From Azorinus chamasolen (taxonomy: Eukaryota > Mollusca > Bivalvia > Cardiida > Solecurtidae): DNA of 64,000 nucleotides. The stretch spans positions 41,681,552 to 41,745,551 of the forward strand of contig OY755252.1 in NCBI GenBank assembly GCA_963576725.1, read 5' to 3'. The position numbers and the translations under genes were made by a program. Numbering within the stretch: position 1 is the first letter of the stretch; the number at the start of each line of letters is the position of its first letter. Shown piece by piece: positions 3,000-54,218 of this stretch. Under the pieces are notes generated by a model. The model had not been told where the DNA came from. It did not search any database and saw only the letters and a list, made by a program, of their open reading frames with translations.

Positions 3000-3450
3000 A
3001 GTACAAACTGCACGAGACCCAAAGTTGAGCTGATATTGTTGTTTTTACTCACAGTGGGGGTAAAGGTTAATGTCAAGTCTATGGTGCGCAATGTATACAT
3101 GACCGACTGTTCAGTATTCATGTTATAAATAATGACATCATGATTTTTTATTAGATTAATTTTTACAATTGCATGTGAATACTGGACATGTTGGCTCATA
3201 CTTTGCACTTCATGGTGACTTCCGTACTCCCTTTTAAGATTTTTGCTCTTTGCGTTTTCTCTAGTGTGACTTTACCTTACTTGTGTTTCTTCTTACGTTT
3301 AACCTATTCAATGTTTCCCTTCATATTCTTAGTCTTCTTTATTTTTGTCGTAACCTCTGGTATGTTTTTATTCTTTTACACCACTTTTCGTTACATACTA
3401 CATACGTATGTCGCTTTTTACGGAAGGGTGCTACAGTTACTACACAAATT
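3000..3450. other. Upstream of Naiad copy 1; no gene recognised
   Basis: T-rich on the plus strand. Open frames at 3188-3454 and 3283-3555 are hydrophobic low-complexity; the last ~35 codons of the second (from 3451) may be degraded Naiad N-terminus. Confidence 0.4.
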
Positions 3451-3858
3451 ATGAATAGTCTCCCTATACTCAAAATTACTAACTTAAACTTACACTCTGT
3501 GTCTTCCATTCAGATTCCTCATAACCTGGCTAATTTCCAATCACTACAGCCGTAAGTTTGTATTAAACCTCTAAAATTGTCTTCTGCTTCATCTTTTCAT
3601 GTTCCCTCTTCGGCTATTAGTAACATTTTTCATAATGGACCTAAAATCGTTCTGTCTCCTTTAAAGCAATCTATCCTTTGTTATAGTAAAGTCCATCTAA
3701 ATTCACATTATTTGAACAAAAGACATAGGGTGTATCAAATAATTACTAAGTGCAATAGTAAGAGGTGTATGTGTTGCAATTTCATTTCTACTAGATCAAC
3801 AATTAAATCTCTTATTAATGGTAGAGTGTTTAGCGTGAAGATTAATTCTGATTTAGAT

Positions 3859-3909
3859 TGAAACACATCTAATATTATATATATTCTTACATGAAATGCG
3901 CCACGTTGA
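3859..3909 (+). other. Three in-frame TGA codons at endonuclease Cys positions (candidate selenocysteines)
   Basis: TGA at 3859-3861, 3892-3894 and 3907-3909, all in the frame that runs from 3577 to 4602. The local reading is DLD-U-NTSNIIYILT-U-NAPR-U-GIQYVG. In PLE endonucleases this block normally reads C-(9-10)-C-(2-4)-C just before the GIY-YIG core, and the last two Cys belong to the CCHH zinc motif. No TAA or TAG occurs in the same 340-codon stretch, so random decay is a poor explanation. Confidence 0.75.
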
Positions 3910-4714
3910 GGCATTCAATATGTAGGTCAGACAGGACGTTCTTTAAAAACTAGGTTTCGTGAACACAGTTACCATTGCCGGATAAAAAAAGTACGCAATT
4001 TTCTTTACCAGCATTTTCGTCATACAGGACATTCTTTCAAATATGTTTCGGTTCAACCAGTTGAACGAATTTATTATGATTCTAAAACTACTGGTAGTTT
4101 AAAATCTAAAGCTCGTTTTATCACAGAGCTAGACTGGATAAAGAAATTACAAACACCTTTTCCTTTAGGCCTTAATGATAACATTTTCCAAAGCGGCAAC
4201 ATTTCTAAAGATCCAAGCATCGATATTTTCTCTATATTTTCTATTCGAAAACGTAAAAGTAGATCACATGGCAGACGTAGAAATGGTAATATTAAGCGTA
4301 AATTACGTCGTAATATGTCTATTCATGATTTACATACCATTCTAAAACAAACTGGTAAACATTCTATGTTATCTTGTTTATCGTCTTTACCCTTTTCCTG
4401 TCTTAAGTCCATAGACGAAGAAGCTGATAAAATCTATATGCGTACAGATCCGTTTATTAATACTGCCTCACTTATACAAAGTTACACACAGCATGTTCTT
4501 CGTCCACGTATTGATAAAGAATCGGTTCATAAAAGACATTTTCTTCAGTTCCTAAATAAAGGTATCAATTTTATTGATATTCAAAGTATATTTCGTGAAT
4601 AGAATGTAATCGATACTATTCCCAAATATTTCAACAACTCTGAATCACCTATCATCTGTTATAAATATAATAAACTTTTTAACTACAATAAAATTGTCTC
4701 TGACTCCCTATTCT

Positions 4715-4717
4715 TGA
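4715..4717 (+). other. In-frame TGA in the CxC linker motif (U-D-C), copy 1
   Basis: The reading is S-U-D-C-S followed by FCYKPVGHVITGNF. The Naiad linker is defined by a CxC motif; here its first Cys codon is TGA and the second is TGT. Copy 4 (32643-32645, minus) has TGA-GAT-TGC at the same place. Confidence 0.75.
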
Positions 4718-5128
4718 GATTGTAGCATTTCTAGCTTTTGCTATAAACCAGTTGGTCATGTCATTACTGGTAATTTTGATATCATTAAGGATAAACGTCT
4801 CAGGACCCTCCAAACTAAAGGACCTAAATATAGATTACCTTCCCTTATTGATTTTGACGCTTGTCGAACTCATATTGCGGAAGCTATTCAAGAATTCTGC
4901 ATAAAATGGTGTCGACGAGAACATGCTGATGTTAATGCCCTTTCGGATTGGAAGAAATGTATTTTCGATATTATTGATACGCGTATTACTTTTTACAAAT
5001 CAAATTACCATCTTTTACCACCTCGACCTAGAGTTAAATTTCGCTACTTGAAGAAAAACATTTCTAATTTTCATTCAGATTATGTTCTTGTTCCTGCTGA
5101 CAAGGCATCAAACAATGTAATCATTATT

Positions 5129-5131
5129 TGA
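5129..5131 (+). other. In-frame TGA in the RT fingers, copy 1
   Basis: The reading is PADKASNNVIII-U-RLYYVDVLKKE. It is in the same frame as the linker TGA at 4715, with 137 open codons between them. Copy 4 has TGA at the identical position (32229-32231, minus). Confidence 0.75.
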
Positions 5132-6894
5132 AGATTGTATTATGTTGATGTTTTAAAGAAGGAGGTAACTGATTCAGAAACTTAAATAACAGTTCAAACA
5201 CCTGAAAAAGACATAGTCTCGGAACATGTAAAAATGTGCAATAAATTCAAGTCTGGTCCTAACGTTAAACAAAATAAACTTTCTACTTTGTACTGGATTC
5301 CGAAACTACATAAAACCCTTATAAGGCGCGTTTTATTGCCAACTCTAGCTGTTGTACCACTACTAAATTATCTATAATGTTGACGTCCTGTCTTACTACG
5401 ATCAAAGAACATGTAAAACGCTACTGTGATAAAATATATGAAAATTCTGGTATTAATGTTTTTTGGTCCATGAAAAATTCAAATGGTGTTTTAACAAAAC
5501 TTGAAAATGAACAGTATAACATTTCTTTACTTAGCTCTTATGATTTCTCTACACTCTATACTACTCTACCTCACCATCTTATAAAGGATAAACTTATTAA
5601 ATTAATAGAAAAAACCTTTGCCAGAGAAAACAAAATGTTCATTGCTTGTAATGTTCAACGTTCATTCTTTTCGAATTCAGAAGTTGAACATTACACAATG
5701 TGGACTTGCCTTGATGTTTGTAGATCTCTTACCTTTCTTTTAGATAATATATTTGTGCGTTATTGGGATACCATAAATCGCCAAGTTGTTGGTATATTCA
5801 TGGTTACAAATTGTGCCCCTCTGTTGCGGATTTGTTTTTGTATTGCTACGAGAGGGATTTTATGCTTAGCTTAAAACCTGATACACAGACCGATATTGAT
5901 AATGCTTTTAATAAAACTTCAAGGTATTAAGACGATATTTTGAATTTAGATAATCCTTATTTTGATACTTTGATTTCTTCAATATACCCAAAAGAATTGT
6001 CTTTAAACAAAGCTAATCAGTCTGACATTAAAGCTGCATTTTTAGATTTGAATCTTTCAATTACAAATGATAAAGTTTCGTCCAAAGTATACGATAAAAG
6101 AGAAGATTTTAATTTTAAAATTGTTAATTATCCTTTTGTAGATGGAGATGTGCCACGTTCTACATCTTATGGGGTTTATATTTCTCAACTTATTAGGTTT
6201 GCCCGGGCCTGTTCTTTGCTTAAAGATTTTAACAGACGTTATTCAGTTATAACTGATAAACTTCTTAAGCAAGGTTACAGATATCACAAACTTCGGAAAA
6301 CTTTTTCTAAATTTTATTATCGAAATTTACCTCTCATTAGTAAATATAATTGCAATCTACGGACGTTACTGTGACAAGGCATTTCTCAACCAGAATTTTA
6401 TGGGGATGTTATCTACAAACTTCGGGGTCATATCCATTTTCATTATTTGTTTATAAAACGCATTAAACATTTAAAAAGAAAGGTTATGATCCTATTATAT
6501 TGCAACGCACTGCATGTTTGGTTATCGACCCTTTTACAGTCGATAGCTACGCTTCCCTCTTTGCTTGCGCGATGACAGGCCGAGGGTAGTACTCTATGAT
6601 GGTATACTCTTAAACTTGGATACAGGATGAGCTTACCAGACCCATGTATTACTTTTTCCCTGTCGTGCCCTTAACGGCTTACCTGCAGGTGCTCTGACTT
6701 CAGCAAAGTCATTGAGTACATATTTGACGGATTGTCACAGTTATTATGCTATGTTTTACATGTTGTCCTGTGTTCACCGTCGTCTATGTTGTGGGTAAGT
6801 CCAGCGGGGATACCTTTATTTACAATGTTTGTAAAGCTAGGGTGACTTTGAGAGAAGTGTGAGGTTAGGACGTCCGTAAACCGGTTTAAACCCC

Positions 6895-6914
6895 CAGTGG
6901 TGTTTTTGCTACTG
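6895..6914 (+). promoter_or_regulatory. Conserved 3'UTR hairpin, Naiad copy 1
   Basis: Stem CAGTGGT/GCTACTG around a T-rich loop, preceded by GGTTTAAACCCCC and followed by ACC..CCAAGGCGGTACT. The flanking blocks are conserved in all Naiad 3'UTRs here, while the stem varies by compensating changes (compare 30422-30439 and 54219-54240). It is a candidate part of a SECIS or other 3' RNA signal; no canonical SECIS core was found by eye. Confidence 0.4.
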
Positions 6915-7649
6915 ACCTTGCCAAGGCGGTACTCTCTTTGTCACCCTTCCTTTTGTTTGCCTTGCGTCTTTGTGCTTGTGATTTTGTTCATGTGTGGAAC
7001 GTTTGTCTCTGGTTCTTGTTTGTCTTTTGGTGTATTCTGTGCTCATTTCGTGTGTGAGTGTGCGTTTGGGTGTGTGGTTGTGTGTGTGTCATGCTGTCTA
7101 TCGGTATTTTGGTGGTGGTTCCGTCTTGTATGTGGCTTTGCCTGCTTCACTTTACTACTTTTCCAATCAAACAGAAACTGTAGACTCAAATCTATATTAT
7201 AGCATAAGCAAACAGAGCAGATCCTGATCAGACGGCTCCTATTGGACCTGGGCATGCTCTGCTTCCAAATGCGTGAAAAGGCATTGCTATAAAGGAATTG
7301 GTTAACTCTTTACTACATAAGTAGTCATGTTAGAAATGATGACAGCATGAATAATATTAAAAACGTGCGAAAGTTTACATCTCTTAGCCCTCACCGCTAT
7401 CAGCTCGAATCCCATTCGGGCACTTTCGAGTTTTTTGCAAATTACCACCAACTTGCAGTATTTCGGTGATTCCAATCGAACGGTCTTCTGTGTCAGAAAT
7501 AATGCTGGTCGTTTCGTATACAGACTGAATTTGTTTCAACTAAAATACTGCTGAATCGATGGGAAAAAATAAAAAAAAAACAAGCAATCAAGCATATCCT
7601 ACGGTTATAAAGGATGAATGTAAGATTTAATCTGCATGTACATGGTTAA

Positions 7650-8090
7650 TGAAACAGTAGTAAAGTCAAGCAGGAAAAGCCACACACAAAACGCCACCAT
7701 CACCAAAACATCTACAGAAAGCATAGCAATTTATACTCATACACACACACACATACAGTAGAAAGTCACATACAAGACGCAGTCACCACCAACACATCAA
7801 TAGACAGCATGTCACACACACACACACAACCAAACACACGCAAACACACGAGAAGAACACAGAAAACACCAACAAATACACGATTACCAGAGACAAACAT
7901 GAACAAAACACAAGCACAAAGACACAAGACAAACACAAGTAAGGGTGACAAAGAGAGAACCGCCTTGGCACGGTCAGTAGCAAAATCACCACTGGGGGTT
8001 TAAACCGGTTTACGGACGTCCTAACCTCACACTTATCTCAAAGTCACCCTAGCTAAACAAACATTGTAAATAAAGGTATCCTCGCCAAGC
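7650..8090 (-). mobile_element. Inverted Naiad 3'-end fragment next to copy 1
   Basis: Reverse complement of about 6810-7150: it contains the GGGGGTTTAAACCGG block, the GGACGTCC palindrome and the ACATTGTAAATAAAGGT segment seen in copy 1. The terminal block (CCACCATCACCAAAAC, then CACCACCAACAC) occurs twice. Tail-to-tail inverted fragments are a known feature of PLE insertions. CA-rich simple sequence lies between the two arms. Confidence 0.7.
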
Positions 8091-18578: not shown

Positions 18579-20208
18579 AAGTACAAAAAGGAGTCATGCA
18601 GGAAACACCACATACAGAACAAACACTCGCCCGAACAGCAACACAAGGAAACAGCAAATGTACATAACTAGAAAAAACAACACGCATAAAGACAAAACAA
18701 ACATACAATAGGAGGAAGATGGAAGTACCGCATTGGAACGGTCAGTGACAAAAGTCACTGGGGGTTAAACCGGTTTATGGGCGCCCAACCTCACTCTTAT
18801 TCCATCCCCACCCTAAAAGACAAACAGTGTAAATAAACGTATCCCCTCTCCGACTAATCTACAACAACCGCAACGGCAAATACAATGGTAAAGTGCATGT
18901 ATAACGAAAGAACATTTGATTGAACATACTGTATCCACCGGGTGCTACTAAACAGAGTCTGGTAGAGTCAGGTGGAGTCTGGTAGAGTCCGGTAGAGTCT
19001 GGAGGCTTTTTTAGAAAATTAAGTGCATTTTCAAGGTTATACTGCTGTTATATAACATTATTTAGTATGTTTGTAGCTATAGTAATTAATATCCATTTAA
19101 AAATGAGCGTATAATAGCTTGAAAGCACCCGGTAAATGTTACCCGGTCGGATAGAGTCTGGTCAAGTATTATCTAGAAGCCCTATTAGTATAAGAATACC
19201 CTGAATTGTATCAGTAAACATTCTACATACATTGATAAGTGATTTCATCATAAATTCAAATGCAGTATGTTGGCCTAAACTTCCGTTTTCATCTCCAGAC
19301 TCTACACTACCCCCCGACATTTCGCCAGACTGCAGTCTGAAAAAAGCGAAATAATAATCTGTCATACAATACATATCAAGCTCATACTGCTTTTATATTT
19401 ATGATAAAATCACTTATAACCAGAATGTTTTCTGATAAAATTAAGCGTATTCTAATACTAGTAGAGCTCGTATTCTAATACTAGTAGGGCTTCCAATACT
19501 TGACCAGACACTACCCGACTTACGTCGGCCATTACCGTGTCACCGGGGTAATATTTGCTTCAAGCTATTATAGGCTATTTTGTTAAGGATATTACCTGTT
19601 ACAGCTGCAAACATACTAAATAATGTTACTTATCAGCATTATAATCATGACAATGCACCTAATTGTCTTTAAAAGCCCCCAGACTCTACCGGACTCTACC
19701 GGACTGTACCAGACTCTGTTTAGTATCACCGGTATCCACCTATCGCTAGTGTACTCAATGATTGAGCTGCAAACAGAGTAACTGTAGAAAAGTAATAAAG
19801 GGTACGATAAAATGAAATAGTACAGACATCCGACGTTCTCCTTTCATTTCTTGATTTAAGAGGTCGCCTTCATAGAGTACTAAACCTTTCTTGTCGGCGT
19901 ACATGCAAAGAGGCCAGCGTGATTGCCAACTGTAAAAGGGTTCACAACCAAACATGCAGTATGTTGTAGTACTACAGGATCATATCCCTTTTTAATGAAT
20001 TATTTAACACAGTTGATGAACAAAGTGAGAAAATGGGTATGTCAAATAATATTACGAAGTTTGTTAATCACATCACCATAAAATTCAGGATATGAAATAC
20101 CGTGTCGCAGAAGCACCTTGAGATTACATTGGTACTTGCCAATAAGCGAGAGATTTCGATAGTAAAATTTAGAGAAAGTTTTTCTTAGTTTATGGTATCT
20201 ATATCTGA
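18579..20208 (-). mobile_element. Naiad copy 2, 5'-truncated and interrupted by a foldback element
   Basis: The 3'UTR (18579-18939) and the last ~155 codons of RT (19741-20208) closely match copies 3 and 4. The coding part is cut off at a TATGGTATCTATATC sequence where the other copies continue. A 792-bp foldback element (18940-19731) splits the 3'UTR. Too short to encode any RT catalytic motif. Confidence 0.8.
18940..19731. mobile_element. 792-bp foldback MITE inserted in Naiad copy 2
   Basis: Ends GGGTGCTACTAAACAGAGTC and GACTCTGTTTAGTATCACC are inverted repeats followed by GGTAGAGTC-type subterminal repeats. The arms extend inward about 230 bp (TAGTATGTTTG..., TAGCTTGAAGC...). A 9-bp direct repeat GTATCCACC flanks it (18931-18939 and 19732-19740). 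Copies 3 and 4 of the Naiad show the uninterrupted site CTGTATCCACCTATC. Long TIRs with a 9-bp duplication suggest a Mutator-like origin; no transposase is present. Confidence 0.8.
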
Positions 20209-21000: not shown

Positions 21001-21072
21001 CCGGCCGCGTGGCTCAGTGGTAGAGCGTCCGCCTGCGGTACGGAAGGTCGTTGGTTCGATCCCCGGCCGCGA
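21001..21072 (+). other. tRNA-like head 1 of composite SINE
   Basis: A-box TGGCTCAGTGG and a near B-box GGTTCGATCC. The D arm GCTC..GAGC is perfect, the anticodon stem has a C-A mismatch and the anticodon would be GCG, which is not normal for animal tRNA-Arg. The acceptor stem is imperfect. Pol III promoter of a SINE rather than a functional tRNA gene. Confidence 0.6.
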
Positions 21073-21138
21073 CAGACCAAAAGTCGTTAAAAGTTGGTAC
21101 TAGTAGCTCCCTTGTCTACGCTCGACAATAAAGGTGTA

Positions 21139-21210
21139 GGTGGCTGTGGTCTAGTGGTAGCGCGCTTGACTATCAGTCCGGAGGTCCGGGGTTCAAATCC
21201 CGGTCCCACC
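21139..21210 (+). other. tRNA-like head 2 of composite SINE
   Basis: TGGTCTAGTGGT (A-box) and GGTTCAAATCC (perfect B-box) with a good T stem (CCGGG/CCCGG). The anticodon stem is poorly paired. The same head, inverted, appears in the SINEs at 47.0 and 56.7 kb. Confidence 0.65.
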
Positions 21211-22537
21211 CGGAAATTTCAGAGACGCTTTTCCGTGTCTCCCACCCGCACATACTCTCCACCCAGGGGTTAAAATGGATACCTGTAAGGGTCACTCGCC
21301 GGTACTGTGGCTGCATGATTGCGCCATATGTTAGCAGTGCTCAATATTGTAGGCCAATGACCAGGGGAGTAAATGTACAGTCGGCTGAACGGTCATTCGG
21401 ACTGAAAGTAGACTATAACTAGGTACTTTACTTTTTACTTTTTTAGTTCTAGGACTGGTCGGCCCGGTGTCAGGATAATGTGACTGGGTGGGGTGCCCTT
21501 GCCATGTACCTGCGGCAGGAGTATTCCAGTGAGGCAGCACTATAACTTGTCTCATGCGGGTGCCGTCTGCAAATAACTGAAATACTGTTGGTCGAACGTA
21601 AAACCCAACTCACTCACTCACATGCGTAACATCAATCTGAATGGTGACATCATTATTATGACCAAATCGAAGGCTAAAGGGAGTAGACATTAATAAATGT
21701 TCTGTCTTTTCATGCAAGCTTGAACTCGTTCCCTCATATTGACGCCTCTGTAAAAGTCACGTTTTGAAACTATTATGATAAATAGTTATCACAATGGTTT
21801 CAAAATACAATTCTAAAATGTTCCTTTTTTCTAGTAAATGCACATTTAATCAAAGATGTTAAGTCTAAAATAAAACCTATGCGAGAATCTTGTCTATTTA
21901 CTTGTTACAATCTATTTCCCTACTATTTACAATGGCAATCTCTGATGTGATTCTAATGTATTGACCATTTGCCTGCTAAGTGCGACCTGCAACCTGGCTG
22001 TCGTGTGTAAGCAGCTTGAGTCCAGATGGGACGAGTAACTCAGTATCCAGTCTGTTTGACCATCGGTCAGTAGTTTCTCAAACGTTTGACCGAATCAGAT
22101 GTAAAATTAAAAATGTCAACATAACGGTGTTAACACATTACCTCATAGGCTATTTTCAGATCCAACCTCTTTGAATAAATCGACCGAAAAGGAGCATTAA
22201 CTAGAGAAAAGGAAATTTTAGAATTTAGTAGTTTGAAATCATTGTGATAAATAGAGCTATCACAATGGTTTCACAAAGTGACGTCAAAAGTCGTTAGAAT
22301 GAGGGAATGGGTTAAAGCAGACAGCTCTTTCAGCAGACTAACAGTTATATGTTTAAAATAACCTAGAGTTATTTTACTTCCGACTCGTCTAATGTTATGA
22401 GAAACTATTGACAGGGTGTCAAACAGACTCTACCCGGATGAGACGCCGAGCTACTCGGGGTATCATCTGAACCCATTCTGTTTGTAAAGGTGATCACAGA
22501 TTCGCATTAACGCATTTCACCTGTTTGATACTCTTAA

Positions 22538-22961: not shown

Positions 22962-24857
22962 ACAAGTACAAAAATGAGTCATGCAGGAAATACCACATAC
23001 AGAACAAACACTCGCCCGAACAGCAACACAAGGAAACAGCAAATGTACATGGGTAGAAAAAACAACAAGAGACGCACAAAGACCAAACAAACATACAATA
23101 GGAGGAAGATGGAAGTACCGCCTTGGAACGGTCAGTGACAAAAGTCACCGGGGGTTTAAACCGGTTTATGGGCGCCCAACCTCACCCTTATTCCATCCCC
23201 ATCCTAAAAGACAAACAGTGTAAATAAACGTATCCCCTCTCCGACTAATCTACAACAACCGCGACAGCAAATACAGTGGTAAAGTGCATGTATAACAAAA
23301 AAACATTTAATTGAACATACTGTATCCACCTATCGCTAGTGTACTCAATGATTGAGCTGCAAACAGAGTAACTGTAGAAAAGTAATAAAGGGTACGACAA
23401 AAATGAAATAGTACAGATATCCGACGTTCTCCTTCCATTTCTGGATTTAAGAGGTCGCCTTCATAGAGTACTAAACCTTTCTTGTCGGCGTACATGCAAA
23501 GAGGCCAGCGTGATTGCCAACTGTAAAAGGGTTCACAACCAAACATGCAGTATGTTGTAATAATACAGGATCATATCCCTTTTTAATGAATTGTTTTATA
23601 TATTTGATGAACAAAGTGAGAAAATGGGTATGTCCAATAATTCTACGAAGTTTGTAAATCACATCACCATAAAATTCAGGATGTGAAATACCGTGTCGCA
23701 AAAGTACCTTGAGATTACATTTGTACTTGCCAATAAGCGAGAGATTTCGATAGTAAAATTTAGAGAAAGTTTTTCTTAGTTTATGGTATCTATATCCTTG
23801 TTTAAGCAGTTTTTCAGTTAAAATGAGATTTCGACTGTTAAAATCGTCAATAGATGAACAAGCTCTAGCAAAACGAATAAGTTGAGATATATAAACCCCG
23901 TAAGATGGAGCACGGGGAACATCCCCGTCAAGATGAGGAAAATTTACAATATTAAAATCAAAATCATCTCTTTTGTCATATATTTTAGAAGAAATCATTC
24001 CATTATTAATTTTAAGGTCTAGGTCAAGAAACGCTGCATAATTGTCGGACGGGTTAGCTTTATTCAATTTGAGTTCTTTAGGATAAATTGTAGGAATCAG
24101 AGCATTAAAGAAAGGGTTATCTAAGTTAAAAATATCATCCAAATATCGACAAGTATCATTGAAGGCTTTTATAACATCTTCTTGTGATTGAGGATTCAAA
24201 CTCAACATGAAATCTCTCTCATAGCAGTACAAAAACAAATCTGCGACAAGTGGTGCACAATTCGTACCCATGGGAATACCAATTACCTGACGGTATATAG
24301 CATTCCCATAACGTACAAATATGTTATCCAAAAGAAAGGTTAGTGCTTCGCAAACTTCTGAGCAAGTCCAATTGGTGTAATATTTCATTTGCTCGTCAGT
24401 AAAGAAAGCTTTTTCAGCATTACATGCCAAGAACGATGTTTTTTCTCGGGCAAATACTTTCTGGATCAAGCTAGTAAGCTTATCCTTAATTAAAATATGA
24501 GGAAGAGTTGTGTACAGAGTAGAAAAATCGTAAGTGCTTACAGTGGATGCAAGATACCTTTTGTTCTTAAGTTTGTTTAAGACTTCTGAAGAGTTCTTAA
24601 TAGACCAGAAGAGATTTATTCCAGAATTTTCATAAGTCTTATCACAGTAAAATTTTACATGTTCCTTTACCTTCGTTAAACAAGAAGTCAAAAGTATAGA
24701 CAATTTAGTAGTTGTACATGAACTAGAATTTGCAATGAAACGCGCTTTATATGGTTTTTTATGTAGTTTTGGTAACCAATACATAGTAGGAAGTTTATGT
24801 TGTGTAATTTTAATATCGGTTCCAAATTGTTCACACTTTTTGACATGGTCTGAAGAC
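22962..24857 (-). mobile_element. Naiad copy 3, 5'-truncated, with intact RT core
   Basis: Nearly identical to copy 4 over its whole length, so recently active. It is 5'-truncated at TGACATGGTCTGAA. It is enclosed by an 18-bp perfect direct repeat TTAATTGATTTAAGGAAA (22895-22912 and 24877-24894), with about 50 bp of extra sequence at the 3' side and about 19 bp at the 5' side. Confidence 0.85.
23471..24784 (-). CDS. Partial Naiad reverse transcriptase (RT core without endonuclease)
   Basis: 437 residues open from the first Met to the stop. RT motifs: YDFSTLYTTLP (residues 85-95, motif A Asp at 86), GIPMGTNCAPLVADLF (169-184, motif B), RYLDDIFN (213-220, catalytic YLDD) and AAFLDLDL (motif D), then LDGDVPRAPSYGVYISQLIRFARAC. 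The stretch between WLPKLHKKPYKARF and motif A may be the insertion-in-fingers region shared with telomerases. The catalytic aspartates are intact. It lacks the N-terminal endonuclease and linker, so it cannot be autonomous. The first Met is internal to the full protein; the homologous frame continues upstream to 24857. Confidence 0.85.
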   Translation of the reverse strand: MYWLPKLHKKPYKARFIANSSSCTTTKLSILLTSCLTKVKEHVKFYCDKTYENSGINLFWSIKNSSEVLNKLKNKRYLASTVSTYDFSTLYTTLPHILIKDKLTSLIQKVFAREKTSFLACNAEKAFFTDEQMKYYTNWTCSEVCEALTFLLDNIFVRYGNAIYRQVIGIPMGTNCAPLVADLFLYCYERDFMLSLNPQSQEDVIKAFNDTCRYLDDIFNLDNPFFNALIPTIYPKELKLNKANPSDNYAAFLDLDLKINNGMISSKIYDKRDDFDFNIVNFPHLDGDVPRAPSYGVYISQLIRFARACSSIDDFNSRNLILTEKLLKQGYRYHKLRKTFSKFYYRNLSLIGKYKCNLKVLLRHGISHPEFYGDVIYKLRRIIGHTHFLTLFIKYIKQFIKKGYDPVLLQHTACLVVNPFTVGNHAGLFACTPTRKV

Positions 24858-30439: not shown

Positions 30440-32228
30440 GGGGGTTAAACCGGTTTATGGGCGCCCAACCTCACCCTTATTCCATCCCCATCCTAAAAGA
30501 CAAACAGTGTAAATAAACGTATCCCCTCTCCGACTAATCTACAACAACCGCGACAGCAAATACAGTGGTAAAGTGCATGTATAACAAAAAAACATTTAAG
30601 TGAACATACTGTATCCACCTATCGCTAGTGTACTCAATGATTGAGCTGCAAACAGAGTAACTGTAGAAAAGTAATAAAGGGTACGACAAAAATGAAATAG
30701 TACAGATATCCGACGTTCTCCTTCCATTTCTGGATTTAAGAGGTCGCCTTCATAGAGTACTAAACCTTTATTGTCGGCGTACATGCAAAGAGGCCAGCGT
30801 GATTGCCAACTGTAAAAAGGTTCACAACCAAACATGCAGTATGTTGTAGTACTACAGGATCATATCCCTTTTTAATGAATTGTTTTATATATTTGATGAA
30901 CAAAGTGAGAAAATGGGTATGTCCAATAATTTTACGAAGTTTGTAAATCACATCACCATAAAATTCAGGATGTGAAATACCGTGTCGCAAAAGTACTTTG
31001 AGATTACATTGGTACTTGCCAATAAGCGAGAGATTTCGATAGTAAAATTTAGAGAAAGTTTTTCTTATTTTATGGTATCTATATCCTTGTATAAGCAGTT
31101 TTTCAGTTAAAATGAGATTTCGACTGTTAAAATCGTCAATAGATGAACAAGCTCTAGCAAAACGAATAAGTTGAGATATATAAACCCCGTAAGATGGAGC
31201 ACGGGGAACATCCCCGTCAAGATGAGGAAAATTTACAATATTAAAATCAAAATCATCTCTTTTGTCATATATTTTAGAAGAAATCATTCCATTATTAATT
31301 TTAAGGTCTAGGTTAAGAAACGCTGCATAATTGTCGGACGGGTTAGCTTTATTCAATTTGAGTTCTTTAGGATAAATTGTAGGAATCAAAGCATCAAAGA
31401 AAGGGTTATCTAAGTTAAAAATATCATCCAAATATCGACAAGTTTCATTGAAGGCTTTTATAACATCTTCTTGTGATTGAGGATTCAAACTCAACATGAA
31501 ATCTCTCTCATAGCAGTACAAAAACAAATCTGCGACAAGTGGTGCACAATTCGTACCCATGGGAATACCAATTACCTGACGGTATATAGCATTCCCATAA
31601 CGTACAAATATGTTATCCAAAAGAAAGGTTAGTGCTTCGCAAACTTCTGAGCAAGTCCAATTGGTGTAATATTTCATTTGCTCGTCAGTAAAGAAAGCTT
31701 TTTCAGCATTACATGCCAAGAATGATGTTTTTTCTCGGGCAAATACTTTCTGGATCAAGTTAGTAAGCTTATCCTTAATTAAAATATGAGGAAGAGTTGT
31801 GTACAGAGTAGAAAAATCGTACGTGCTTACAGTGGATGCAAGATACCGTTTGTTCTTAAGTTTGTTTAAGACTTCTGAAGAGTTCTTAATAGACCAGAAG
31901 AGATTTATTCCAGAAATTTCATAAGTCTTATCACAGTAAAATTTTACATGTTCCTTTACCTTCGTTAAACAAGAAGTCAAAAGTATAGACAATTTAGTAG
32001 TTGTACATGAACTAGAATTTGCAATGAAACGCGCTTTATATGGTTTTTATGTAGTTTTGGTAACCAATACATTGTAGGAAGTTTATGTTGTGTAATTTTA
32101 ATATCGGTTCCAAATTGTTCACACTTTTTGACATGGTCTGAAATGATAGTCTTTTCGTCAGTGGTAACTGAAATGTATGACTTGGTATTAATAATTTCCT
32201 GCTTCAAGACATCGATATAATGTAATCG

Positions 32229-32231
32229 TCA
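32229..32231 (-). other. In-frame TGA in the RT fingers, copy 4
   Basis: Minus-strand reading is DKASNNVIII-U-RLHYIDVLKQE, homologous to TGA 5129 in copy 1. Frames on both sides are continuous. Confidence 0.75.
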
Positions 32232-32642
32232 AATAATAATCACATTATTTGATGCCTTATCAGCAGGAACAAAAACGTATTTTGAATGGAAATCCTGTAA
32301 ACCCTTTTTAAGATGTCTAAATGAAGTTCTAGGTTTAGGTGGAAGAAGGTGTTTATTAGAGCTGTAAAAGGAAATGCGTTTATCAATAATATCAAAAATT
32401 AGTTTTTTCCAACAAGAAAGGGCATTAGACTCAACATGTTCTCTTCGACACCATTTAATACTAAAATTTTGTAAAGCCTCCGCAATCTGAACTCGACAAG
32501 AGTTAAAATCTATCAAGGATGGTATTCTATATTTGGGAACTTTATTCAAAAGAGATCGTAGACGTTTATCTTTAATTATCTCAAAATTACCAGTAATCAC
32601 ATGACCAGCCGGAGAATAGCAAAATTTTGAGGTGGCGCAATC

Positions 32643-32645
32643 TCA
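32643..32645 (-). other. In-frame TGA in CxC linker motif (U-D-C), copy 4
   Basis: Minus-strand reading is IPDN-U-D-C-ATSKFCYSPAGHVI. It is the same position as TGA 4715 in the divergent copy 1. Confidence 0.75.
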
Positions 32646-33029
32646 ATTATCAGGAATATTATCATTAATATTAAGGTCGGCCACAATTTTATTATAGTTG
32701 AAAATTGTATTTCTGATGGGTTTGTTATATTTGTAGCAGATGATAGGTGGTTCTGTATTTTTAAAGTATTTAGGAATAGTGTCAATTACATTTTTGTCTC
32801 TAAAAATACTTTGGAGGTCAATAAAATCAATACCTTTATTAATAAAAGGAGTTTTCAAGAAGAATCTTTGGTGTTCAGATAATGTGTCGATGTGCGGTCT
32901 GAGAACATGTAGAGTAAAGCTTTGTATCAAACTAGCCGTTCCTATGAGAGGATCTGATCGAAAAATAATTTTATCGGCTTGCTCGTCAATTTCTTTTAAT
33001 GAACATATAGATAAGGAGGAAAGTCTAGT

Positions 33030-34466
33030 AAGGTGCTGGAATATGTCTGCAATAGCCATAACCAGATATGCTGTAGTGTCTGTCTTACCTTGAATCACAG
33101 TTCCTGTTCAAACAAGGGCTATATACCAGACATCTCTGATGGTATTGCAAGCAGTCAGGGGTACATGCGTTTGAAGACGGATTTAGACAAGCTAGTTACT
33201 TTGGTAACCGTTCGACAGAAGATGATCGACACCGACAGGAAGGACAACGAGAAACAGCATTCTAAAGCACTGGCAGACATAAAACACTTTAGAGAGAAAA
33301 TCAATACGTTTCTGGATAAACTTGAAGAAGACACCATTCGGAAAGTGTCTTCGGTTAATAAGGTGAATTCCGAGAAGATTGCAACTGTGTCAGATAAATA
33401 CAGCAACCTTCTATCGGAAGTGAACAACCTGAAATCAGACTTATTGCGAAAAGAGACTGAAGGAAAAAACAATCTTTTATATGTAACAGCGAAACTGTCT
33501 GAAGATCGTACAACTGCCATGAACAGTAGAATAAATCAGTGTAGTATAGATAAGGTGACCATCTACTCATTTCACCAGGACGAGACAATTCAGCAGATGA
33601 TGTCTACACTGTCAGCCATATGGTCATTGTCATTGAGGCAGAATGACACACCAAATACGACCCGTTACGTTCGGGAGGTCAACGTAAAGTCGAAGGACGA
33701 TGCAGAGGACTGCCATATCATTAGTATAGCTGTACTGACCGGGGACCGCGTGGTTGTTACCGACTACTGGAACATGAACGTCAAACTGATCGACATGAAG
33801 ACGAACAAGCTTACATCAAGTCTAGCTTTGTCTTCACAACCATTCGATGTTATAGACATAACACCAAATCAACTTGCCGTGGCTTTAGGAATCAAGAGAA
33901 AACTTGCGATCATCACTGTGTCAGACGTCTTAACCCTTAGTCACACTATAGATACACCTGGCGCTTATATTGTCGGGCTTTGTTATGATGGGTCAAACTT
34001 TATTACTGTATGTCACGAACCGAACAGTGTTAAAGTCATCGACATGTCCGGTAGAACTTTGAACACATTCACCACTGACAGCAATAGCAAAGAGCTGTTC
34101 GCCGAGCCTTTTCGTATCGCAATAGGCCGTGACAATGACGTTATCTACGTAACTGACAGGGAGGCTAACACGGTGACGAGTATGACTACCGGCGGTCACG
34201 TCATCTCCGTGTACACACATGACATGTTACAACATCCATACGGAGTAGCTGTAGACAGGAACGGTACCGTGTATGTGTGTAGCAAAGGTACCCACACTGT
34301 CCATCAGCTCTCCCCTACTGGAGAATTTACTCGGGTCTTACTTAGACAGGATCAGGAACTGGATTTTCCCTTAGCCATAACTTACAGTGATGAGGACGAC
34401 AGACTCTACATCAGTTGTAACAGCACCGAGAAGTGTGACTACATCAGTCTATATCAATTGGAATAA
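33030..34466 (+). pseudogene. C-terminal part of interrupted TRIM-like gene (B-box 2 remainder, coiled coil, NHL propeller)
   Basis: Open for about 478 codons with no internal stop. It keeps the B-box 2 C..H..C..C..H ligands, the coiled coil (KDNEKQHSKAL, also present in the intact copy) and the propeller with VTDREANTVTSM and QLSPTGEF-type strands. The first codons (VLEYVCNSHNQ) match VLEIFCHDHNQ of the intact gene, which fixes the junction. The stop again overlaps AATAAA. Confidence 0.85.
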
Positions 34467-47489: not shown

Positions 47490-47560
47490 CTTATTTTCTA
47501 TCGACGTTTTGGTGGTGGTTGTGTGTGGCATTTCCTGTTTGACTTTACTAATTGTTTATT
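47490..47560 (+). mobile_element. Naiad 3'-terminal fragment beside a microsatellite
   Basis: CTATCGACGTTTTGGTGGTGG followed by GCATTTCCTGTTTGACTTTACTA-type sequence resembles the 3' end of copy 1 (7095-7155). It directly follows a TGCG/TACG/TGCC simple repeat, consistent with the microsatellite insertion bias reported for Naiads. Confidence 0.45.
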
Positions 47561-47740
47561 TAGATATATACTGAATCATTTTCTTGATTGATATTCATAG
47601 AATATTATTAGTCTTTAGGAATATGCTTAACCATTTGCTTGATTGATAGTCATAAACGGTTCCGCCGATGAGGATTATAAATTGGCAATCGGTCATCAGT
47701 TTCTCAAACGCTTTAAAGTCCCTGGACGTCCTGGGTCCAT

Positions 47741-52877: not shown

Positions 52878-53767
52878 GAGTTATTGTGACGCAATTACAT
52901 TTCTGTTAGACAATATATTTGTTCGTTTGGGTAATTCTGTATATCGGCAGGTCATTGGTATTCCCATGGGAACCAACTGTGCTCCTTTAATTGCAGACTT
53001 GTTTTTGTATCGTTATGAACGGGATTTTATGTTTAAGCTTAAAACCGATGCACAGGCGGATGTCATCAATGCTTTTAACAATGCAGCACGTTATTTGGAC
53101 GGCATATTTAATATTGATAACCCATACTTTGATTCCATGATAATCTCAATTTAACCCTAGAGAGCTCAAGCTTAATAAAGCAAATAGTTCTGACATATCT
53201 GCAGCCTTTTTAGATTTAAATTTATCTATAAACAATGGAACAATTTCTTCTGGAATTTATGACAAAAGGGGTGATTTTAATTTTAAAATAGTTAACTATC
53301 CTCATTTGGATGGGGATGTTCCCCGTACTACATGTTACGGTGTATATATTTCTCAGCTTATTCGTTTTGCTAGAGCTTGTTCTTCTGTTAATGATTTTAA
53401 CAATCGTAACCTTATTATCACTGAAAAACTACTAAAACAGGGCTACAGATATGACAAACTTCGTAAAACCTTTTCAAAATTTTACCACCGTAATGTTCTA
53501 CTCATCAGCAAAAACAATTGTAATTTATGTTCTTTTCTAAAGTTAGGTATTTCACATCCGGAGTTTTACGGTGATGTCATTTACAAACTTCGAAAAATTA
53601 TTGGACACACATATTTTAACACTTTGTTTGTCAAACGTATAAAACAATTCATTAAAAAGGGATATGACCCCTCTATATTGCAGCACACTACATGCTTGGT
53701 GATCGACCCCTTCACAGTTGGTCATTATGCTTTCCTCTTTGCTTGTGCGACGACGGAAAAGACTTAA
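52878..53767 (+). pseudogene. Naiad RT fragment, copy 5 (catalytic Asp lost, frameshifted)
   Basis: Encodes TFLLDNIFVR, then motif B (GIPMGTNCAPLIADLF), then RYLDGIFN: the second catalytic Asp of YLDD is Gly (about 53098-53106). A one-base insertion near 53153 shifts the frame in ISIYPREL. The downstream part (SGIYDKR, LDGDVPRTTCYGVYISQLI) is open to TAA at 53767. Non-functional. Confidence 0.85.
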
Positions 53768-54218
53768 TACTCTATAAAGATTCCCTCTTAAACACGTTTA
53801 CGGAGAGAGGAAAATAGATATTTGTATTTTGCCAGTTCTGTCGTACCCCAAATGACTTCTCCACAGCTGCTCTGACTTCTGAATAGTCATCGAGTACATG
53901 TCTACGATGTCAAGTTTTATCTATTTCAAGTTGTACATACTTAATATCCACTAGTATTTGTATCTTCTTGTGATTTATTTTTTATAAAATGTTGGTGTAG
54001 AAGTGTCTCATATAGTTTTCCCGTACTTTTAAATTATGACGTCATATGATGACGTCGCTTGTTTACCTCTAATGTTTATTTTAAAGTCATTTCGTTTTGA
54101 CAGACATCGTTATTCATGTTGTGAAGTTGTCCGGAGGGGGGATTTTATTTACAGTTTGACTTTGGTGAAAATAGGATAAGGACGAAGTTGGGTACCCATA
54201 AACCAGGTTTAAGTCCCC

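Follow-up and report, generated by a model that had tools for sequence, protein, structure and literature searches.

The window analysed here, a stretch of 64,000 nucleotides (64 kb) of contig OY755252.1 of the bivalve Azorinus chamasolen, contains at positions 3577-6560 a decayed copy of what is, judged from its sequence, a Penelope-like element of the Naiad type. The element is present in many copies, and its single open reading frame (ORF) of about 1,063 codons is in all likelihood (we put the probability at about 0.9) decoded with four selenocysteines (Sec). The initial annotation had proposed a selenoprotein with five in-frame TGA codons, each at a cysteine (Cys) position; fixed TGA codons, Cys in relatives and a covarying Sec insertion sequence (SECIS) support Sec as the predicted reading of these codons, at four sites and not at five. 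The genome sequence holds TGA codons fixed at Cys columns of an otherwise open frame, a covarying SECIS after that frame and a host SEPSECS gene, and from these we infer actual decoding of UGA and a working Sec protein. The copy at the above position (copy 1) has the following features, RT standing for reverse transcriptase:

3451..6589, plus strand: Naiad copy 1 (family 1), decayed ORF, with ATG at 3451 and terminal TAG at 6587-6589.
Layout of copy 1: N-terminal GIY-YIG endonuclease region, CxC linker, C-terminal telomerase-like RT (domain order taken from relatives and from locus L016).
3859..3861, plus strand: TGA, Sec site 1, a Cys upstream of the GIY core; fixed in family 1 (24/24 loci).
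3892..3894, plus strand: TGA, Sec site 2, first Cys of a C..C pair before GIQYVG; 25/25 family-1 loci.
3907..3909, plus strand: TGA private to copy 1 (site 3); TGT in 25/25 loci, not a family Sec site.
4715..4717, plus strand: TGA, Sec site 4, first Cys of the CxC linker; 31/33 loci (one TGC, one TCT).
5129..5131, plus strand: TGA, Sec site 5, RT fingers, ADKASNNV-IIIU; 36/37 loci (one TCA).
6372..6374, plus strand: sixth in-frame TGA, a decayed Arg codon; CGA in 30, CAA in 4 and TGA in 1 of 35 loci.
6587..6651, plus strand: SECIS of copy 1 (SECIS_1 match at 6588-6650), its lower stem beginning in the terminal UAG.

Copy 1 as a whole extends from 3451 to about 6990 on the plus strand. For comparison, 39 other loci were fetched from around the best family-1 matches in the same genome (1.72 Gb in 137 contigs), and codons were read from blastn matches of at least 85% identity at 1,043 columns of copy 1 (3436 to 6600, short zones around frame changes left out); gapped cells were dropped, so that each count is out of the loci that cover the site in question. 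Over these 39 loci TGA is fixed at four of the sites. All five TGA codons noticed initially are present and in frame, but the one at 3907 is not family-wide, and a family with five Sec sites was rejected for that reason; the consensus there is TGT, but at most of the sites it is neither CGA, TGG nor TGT/TGC. The TGA at 6372 was missing from the initial annotation. The only fixed stops among the 1,043 columns are the four TGAs and the terminal TAG at 6587, which is TAG in 31, TAA in one, AAG in one and CAG in one of 34 loci. The TGAs at 3859, 3892 and 3907 lie in one frame of copy 1 and those at 4715 and 5129 in the next, owing to deletions in this copy. These deletions, of 6, 15, 19, 1, 1, 9 and 1 bases near 4544, 4675, 4705, 4712, 5821, 6420 and 6464, respectively, remove runs of bases each of which is present in at least 26 other loci. 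The ordinary decay that had been noted in copy 1 (TAG, TAA and indels) is borne out, its TAA at 3553, TAG at 4600, TAA at 5183 and TAA at 5928 being sense codons in every other locus that covers them (22/22, 32/32, 36/36 and 37/37). Stops scattered elsewhere, in one or two other loci, replace AGA, CGA, TGG and further codons, as ordinary decay would. The frame of locus L016 runs without interruption from its ATG to its TAG, 1,063 codons in all, and contains TGA only at codons 137, 148, 436 and 574. L029 has a frame of the same length with three TGAs, none of them at site 5, and the longest run free of TAA and TAG in the other 37 of the 39 loci is 255-893 codons, some loci holding only part of a copy.

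The four fixed TGAs stand where related proteins have Cys. In a first protein search, which gave 11 relatives, Cys is found in most of them at the four family sites: in 5/5 at 3859, in 7/9 at 3892 (with one gap and one Arg), in 10/11 at 4715 (Trp in relative P0001) and in 9/11 at 5129 (one Trp, one Tyr); at 3907 it is Cys in 9/9. Of the 842 columns that four or more relatives cover, 13 are Cys columns (14 counting 4715), and the chance that four random columns would all fall among these 14 is about 5e-8 if columns are treated as independent. The earlier placement of the fourth TGA at the first position of the CxC linker agrees with the Cys of 10 of the 11 relatives there; the linker reads UxC in family 1, its second Cys being TGT in 32/33 loci and Cys in 11/11 relatives. 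The suggestion that Sec occupies the Cys pair of a putative zinc motif agrees with its first member (site 2), but the second Cys, at 3907, stays Cys in the family. A genome-wide search with one exact site-5 pattern, in which CGA comes directly after the TGA, gave 8 matches and is uninformative on the share of TGA.

Four further Naiad copies lie in the window (five in all), and two of them represent a sister family (family 2):

30694..33032, minus strand: Naiad copy 2 (family 2), 5'-truncated, with SECIS at 30699-30761.
23405..24853, minus strand: Naiad copy 3 (family 2), 5'-truncated, with SECIS at 23410-23472.
52885..53899, plus strand: Naiad copy 4, a diverged fragment, with a SECIS-like stretch at 53762-53833.
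19814..20203, minus strand: Naiad copy 5, a 3' fragment, with SECIS at 19819-19881.

Copies 1 and 2 share about 70% DNA identity, as do families 1 and 2; copies 2 and 3 are 98% alike over one 300-nucleotide stretch, and copy 5 is 95% identical to both over 300 nucleotides. Copy 2 has TGA at site 4 (from 32645) and at site 5 (from 32231). Family-2 codons were counted by comparison with locus L055, itself included (copy 2 is locus L049 of this set), and are TGT in 6/6 at site 1, TGA in 6/6 at site 2, TGC in 6/6 at site 3, and TGA in 8/8 at both sites 4 and 5. The states over sites 1-5 are thus U U C U U in family 1 and C U C U U in family 2, and one family-2 locus shows a change from TGT to TGA. 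Both families are young, with median pairwise divergences of 2.2% (25 loci) in family 1 and 0.9% in family 2. The initial pass of a genome search yielded 5,744 candidates for family 1 and 5,004 for family 2, and 40 of each were scored; the two sets may overlap, and these figures are not copy numbers.

A putative SECIS begins in the stop codon itself. Among 4,227 Rfam families, SECIS_1 is the best match to the 3' end of copy 1 (21.2 bits, E 0.23) and to that of copy 2 (26.0 bits, E 0.012), 801 bases being searched in each case. Over both strands of the whole window only three SECIS_1 matches appear at E <= 10, all below the Rfam cut-off, and these are the 3' ends of copies 2, 3 and 5 on the sense strand (E 0.94, 0.94 and 6.3). 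The hairpin consists, in order, of a lower stem from the UAG, AUGA, an upper stem, AAA 12 bases past the AUGA, and a short apical stem, and its 3' side carries GA. In copy 4 ATAA replaces ATGA, and the SECIS core of that fragment is, on its sequence, decayed. A motif search over the window and the loci gave 54 matches, 34 of them distinct, and 25 distinct sequences were chosen for pair counts (left out were a broken match in L053, an unrelated window stretch at 47539-47610, several near-identical variants and others). In the chosen sequences 94.5% of cells pair, and in all 34 distinct rows, odd ones included, 93.3% do, against 35-50% in either set when the partners are slid. In the chosen set double changes occur in 25 cells, whereas shuffles give 6.5 and none of 500 reaches 25, and RNAalifold, unprompted, finds nearly the same helices. 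A conserved and covarying SECIS thus follows the ORF, accepted on its position and covariation at a score below the gathering score. A chance match in codon-like sequence was also considered and rejected, since copies 1-4 share the position at which the ORF ends and since the covariation, the RNAalifold fold and the whole-window scan all argue for a real element.

Past its TAG, the copy 1 frame continues as Y S M M V Y S and a stop. Among 30 relatives whose C-termini fit a simple pattern, 25 end in two Met at this place (24 SMM and one AMM; several are near-identical), which implies that ATGATG, the SECIS core, lies inside their coding sequence; in those relatives a functional SECIS may therefore be located within the gene. 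A search of the host genome with a pattern in which the stop codon TAA lies inside the SECIS loop gave no match, so that DNA gives no confirmation of such an arrangement.

One gene of the host Sec machinery was located. Seven exon-like matches to SEPSECS, in order and together covering profile positions 18-444, lie on contig C11 (85.21-85.23 Mb), and by sequence the host has this gene. Each match falls short of the whole-gene cut-off, which the division of the gene by introns probably explains.

Several observations weigh against the Sec interpretation. A scan of Rfam at the gathering threshold lists no SECIS, the SECIS_1 scores of 21-26 bits falling short of the gathering score of 35, and in the whole-window scan copies 1 and 4 have no SECIS_1 match at E <= 10. 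The 3' quartet of the family-1 SECIS is AGAC, which departs from the usual SECIS consensus. The number of base pairs with double changes, five, is reached by 125/500 shuffles and is not above chance. Within the family, TGA is retained no better than other codons (3/119 cells changed, 2.5%, vs 2.0% for Cys), and since other codons change at a similar rate, retention by itself was rejected as a sign of selection on TGA. Of the seven SEPSECS matches, three include one stop each, perhaps at intron edges. Trp stands at sites 4 and 5 in some of the relatives. Finally, many copies share a one-nucleotide RT frameshift, so that most copies may be inactive.

The frameshift concerns an A-run just before the RT motif ARFIANSS (window 5303-5340, 32057-32022 and 24769-24733; loci L009-L056), where a one-nucleotide deletion recurs. 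Motif-search matches of family 1 at this run comprise 12/19 with the deletion, six in frame and one with an extra base; the deletion is present in 8/8 family-2 loci (L049-L056), and copy 3 is without it. In the alignment view, 11/37 loci covering the run have an extra base relative to copy 1. Defective masters mobilised in trans, frameshifting and assembly error are all possible sources of this pattern. With regard to programmed -1 frameshifting, no standard slippery heptamer was seen by eye at the shared gap.

That the TGAs are simply stop mutations of a decaying repeat, never read as sense, would suit copy 1 taken by itself, since it bears four TAA or TAG lesions, the CGA-derived TGA at 6372, seven deletions and the private TGA at 3907; ordinary decay probably does account for the TGAs at 3907 and 6372. 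It is extremely improbable for the other four, which over 39 loci are fixed in a frame that is open apart from them, three of them being common also to a family about 30% diverged, and which all stand at Cys columns and are followed by a conserved SECIS. Reading of UGA as tryptophan, generic readthrough, or derivation of the TGAs from TGG is likewise very unlikely. The pertinent data come from a second protein search with 778 matches, 120 of them listed, which brought the relatives examined to 130 overall; many of these are closely akin to one another, so residue counts among them are not independent. Site 4 is covered by 23 of the 130 relatives and is Cys in 13, Trp in nine and Phe in one, and site 5, covered by 67, is Cys in 44, Trp in 21, Arg in one and Tyr in one. 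The Trp residues at the two sites fit a tryptophan reading, but Cys is there in 13/23 and 44/67, the second CxC position is Cys in 23/23 of the relatives covering site 4, a SECIS is present, and Trp in predicted relatives may reflect gene callers that applied code 4 to a TGA. In 23 of the 130 relatives the alignment starts at the second residue after site 5, as would be expected if gene callers had stopped at a UGA there.

A translational throttle, in which scarcity of full-length protein limits transposition and Sec as such is irrelevant, is unlikely as the main role of the UGAs. The first of them is at codon 137 of 1,063, and four in series should lower the full-length yield, as this explanation would have it; on the other hand, neither Cys positions nor a SECIS would be needed for a throttle alone, and the first UGA precedes the GIY-YIG match (142-190), so that no active fragment would be expected from termination there.

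DNA for the P0001-like relatives had no match in viral contigs. A scan of genome contigs found one contig, filed under a Bathymodiolus symbiont genome (L048, 4671-5174), which encodes a Naiad-like RT with Cys at site 5 and is probably mussel DNA. Two of the listed relatives are named Candidatus Thiodiazotropha, a group of symbionts of lucinid clams, which suggests that assemblies so labelled contain clam DNA.

If UGA is read as Sec, the mRNA of the element would be translated once, with the host machinery inserting Sec at each UGA, and for every one of the UGAs the hairpin that begins in the stop codon would draw in the SECIS-binding protein, the Sec elongation factor and the Sec-tRNA of the host. 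Two of the Sec residues would then lie where the GIY-YIG endonuclease begins, one replacing an additional Cys and the other the first member of the C..C pair. As a substitute for Cys, Sec would be a probable zinc ligand at site 2, part of the UxC pair at site 4 and a residue of the RT fingers at site 5. The UGA decoding step of this scheme is strongly supported by the sequence comparisons, and the substitution of Sec for Cys is presumed. The Sec sites most likely arose by one-step exchange of TGT or TGC for TGA, which would be tolerated once a SECIS was present; Cys at site 1 of family 2, the TGT-to-TGA change in one family-2 locus and the private TGA at 3907 all fit such an exchange. A more tentative idea, to which we give somewhat less than even odds, is that in this clade the SECIS has shifted into the gene's own end, the stem using the stop codon and the AUGA core coinciding with the last Met-Met of relatives, and that Cys and Sec codons, once it is there, interchange through single mutations, Sec sites drifting freely in a ratchet-like manner and being multiplied by the mobile element many times in each genome.

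Membership in the Naiads agrees with the domain structure. Relative P0003 has GIY-YIG at 107-195 and RVT_1 at 625-826, so that the permuted domain order initially claimed, endonuclease N-terminal to RT, is found there. L016 is arranged likewise with a weaker endonuclease match: it has no family match at E <= 0.001, and its GIY-YIG match at 142-190 (18.1 bits, E 0.0033) is below the cut-off of 22.6, with RT-region sequence and fold downstream of it. An AlphaFold2 model was built from a 26-sequence alignment with Sec entered as Cys (predicted local distance difference test score 77.1), and its 16 best matches in the PDB by E-value are telomerase entries, with low TM-scores by query (0.23-0.31) and large root-mean-square deviations. 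Craig et al. (2021, Mol Biol Evol 38:5005) are reported to have defined Naiads by an N-terminal GIY-YIG endonuclease, a CxC linker and a C-terminal RT. The predicted GIY-YIG-first order, CxC linker and telomerase-like RT of the present element fit that definition. The same authors reportedly found that Naiads of clams and spiders encode multiple selenocysteines, and these Naiads would resemble the present element in domain order, CxC linker and possession of several Sec. The present element thus belongs to the published multi-Sec kind and may be of the same family as those published. Two details are added here, the overlap of SECIS and stop codon and the exchange of Sec and Cys between the sister families, and either may already be in that work; a literature search by title and abstract start recognised no paper on Sec Naiads.

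Canonical Penelope/Poseidon elements, such as PAc of Anolis, encode a GIY-YIG endonuclease and a telomerase-like RT in one ORF (PMC11167929), and their endonuclease is C-terminal, whereas here it precedes the RT. Selenoprotein P also has several UGA-Sec codons in one mRNA, but it uses two SECIS elements (PMC5133445), unlike the one seen per Naiad 3' end here. A parallel for SECIS placement is fowlpox virus GPx4 (Mix et al. 2007), whose SECIS lies in the coding region as described in PMC7409322. There the SECIS overlaps coding sequence, whereas in the host Naiads the lower stem overlaps the stop codon, and overlap with codons is deduced for relatives only. Young multi-Sec families with a Cys-bearing sister at one site constitute a natural experiment on replacement of Cys by Sec, one that extends to a reverse transcriptase and to a putative zinc ligand. 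Should they be expressed, the elements could rank with the most abundant selenoprotein genes that an animal genome contains, and their transposition would depend on selenium supply.

Downstream of copy 1, inverted copies of its 3' end lie at 6804-7139 and 7762-8085, spaced 622 nucleotides apart, beside TG/CA-rich stretches. Inverted arms are located at 6804-6984 and 7905-8085, and family-2 units have a repeat of about 325 nucleotides at both ends. Naiads, according to Craig et al. (2021), reportedly have pseudo-long terminal repeats and tandem or inverted arrangements, and the arms and end repeats seen here appear to fit these. Loci L046 and L014 show an apparent junction of a family-1 5' part with a family-2 3' end, which suggests template switching or recombination between the families. 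Elsewhere in the window, at 21002-21211, are two tRNA-like genes (ARAGORN: Arg gcg and Asp atc), the first also found by Rfam, which may be tRNA-derived repeats.

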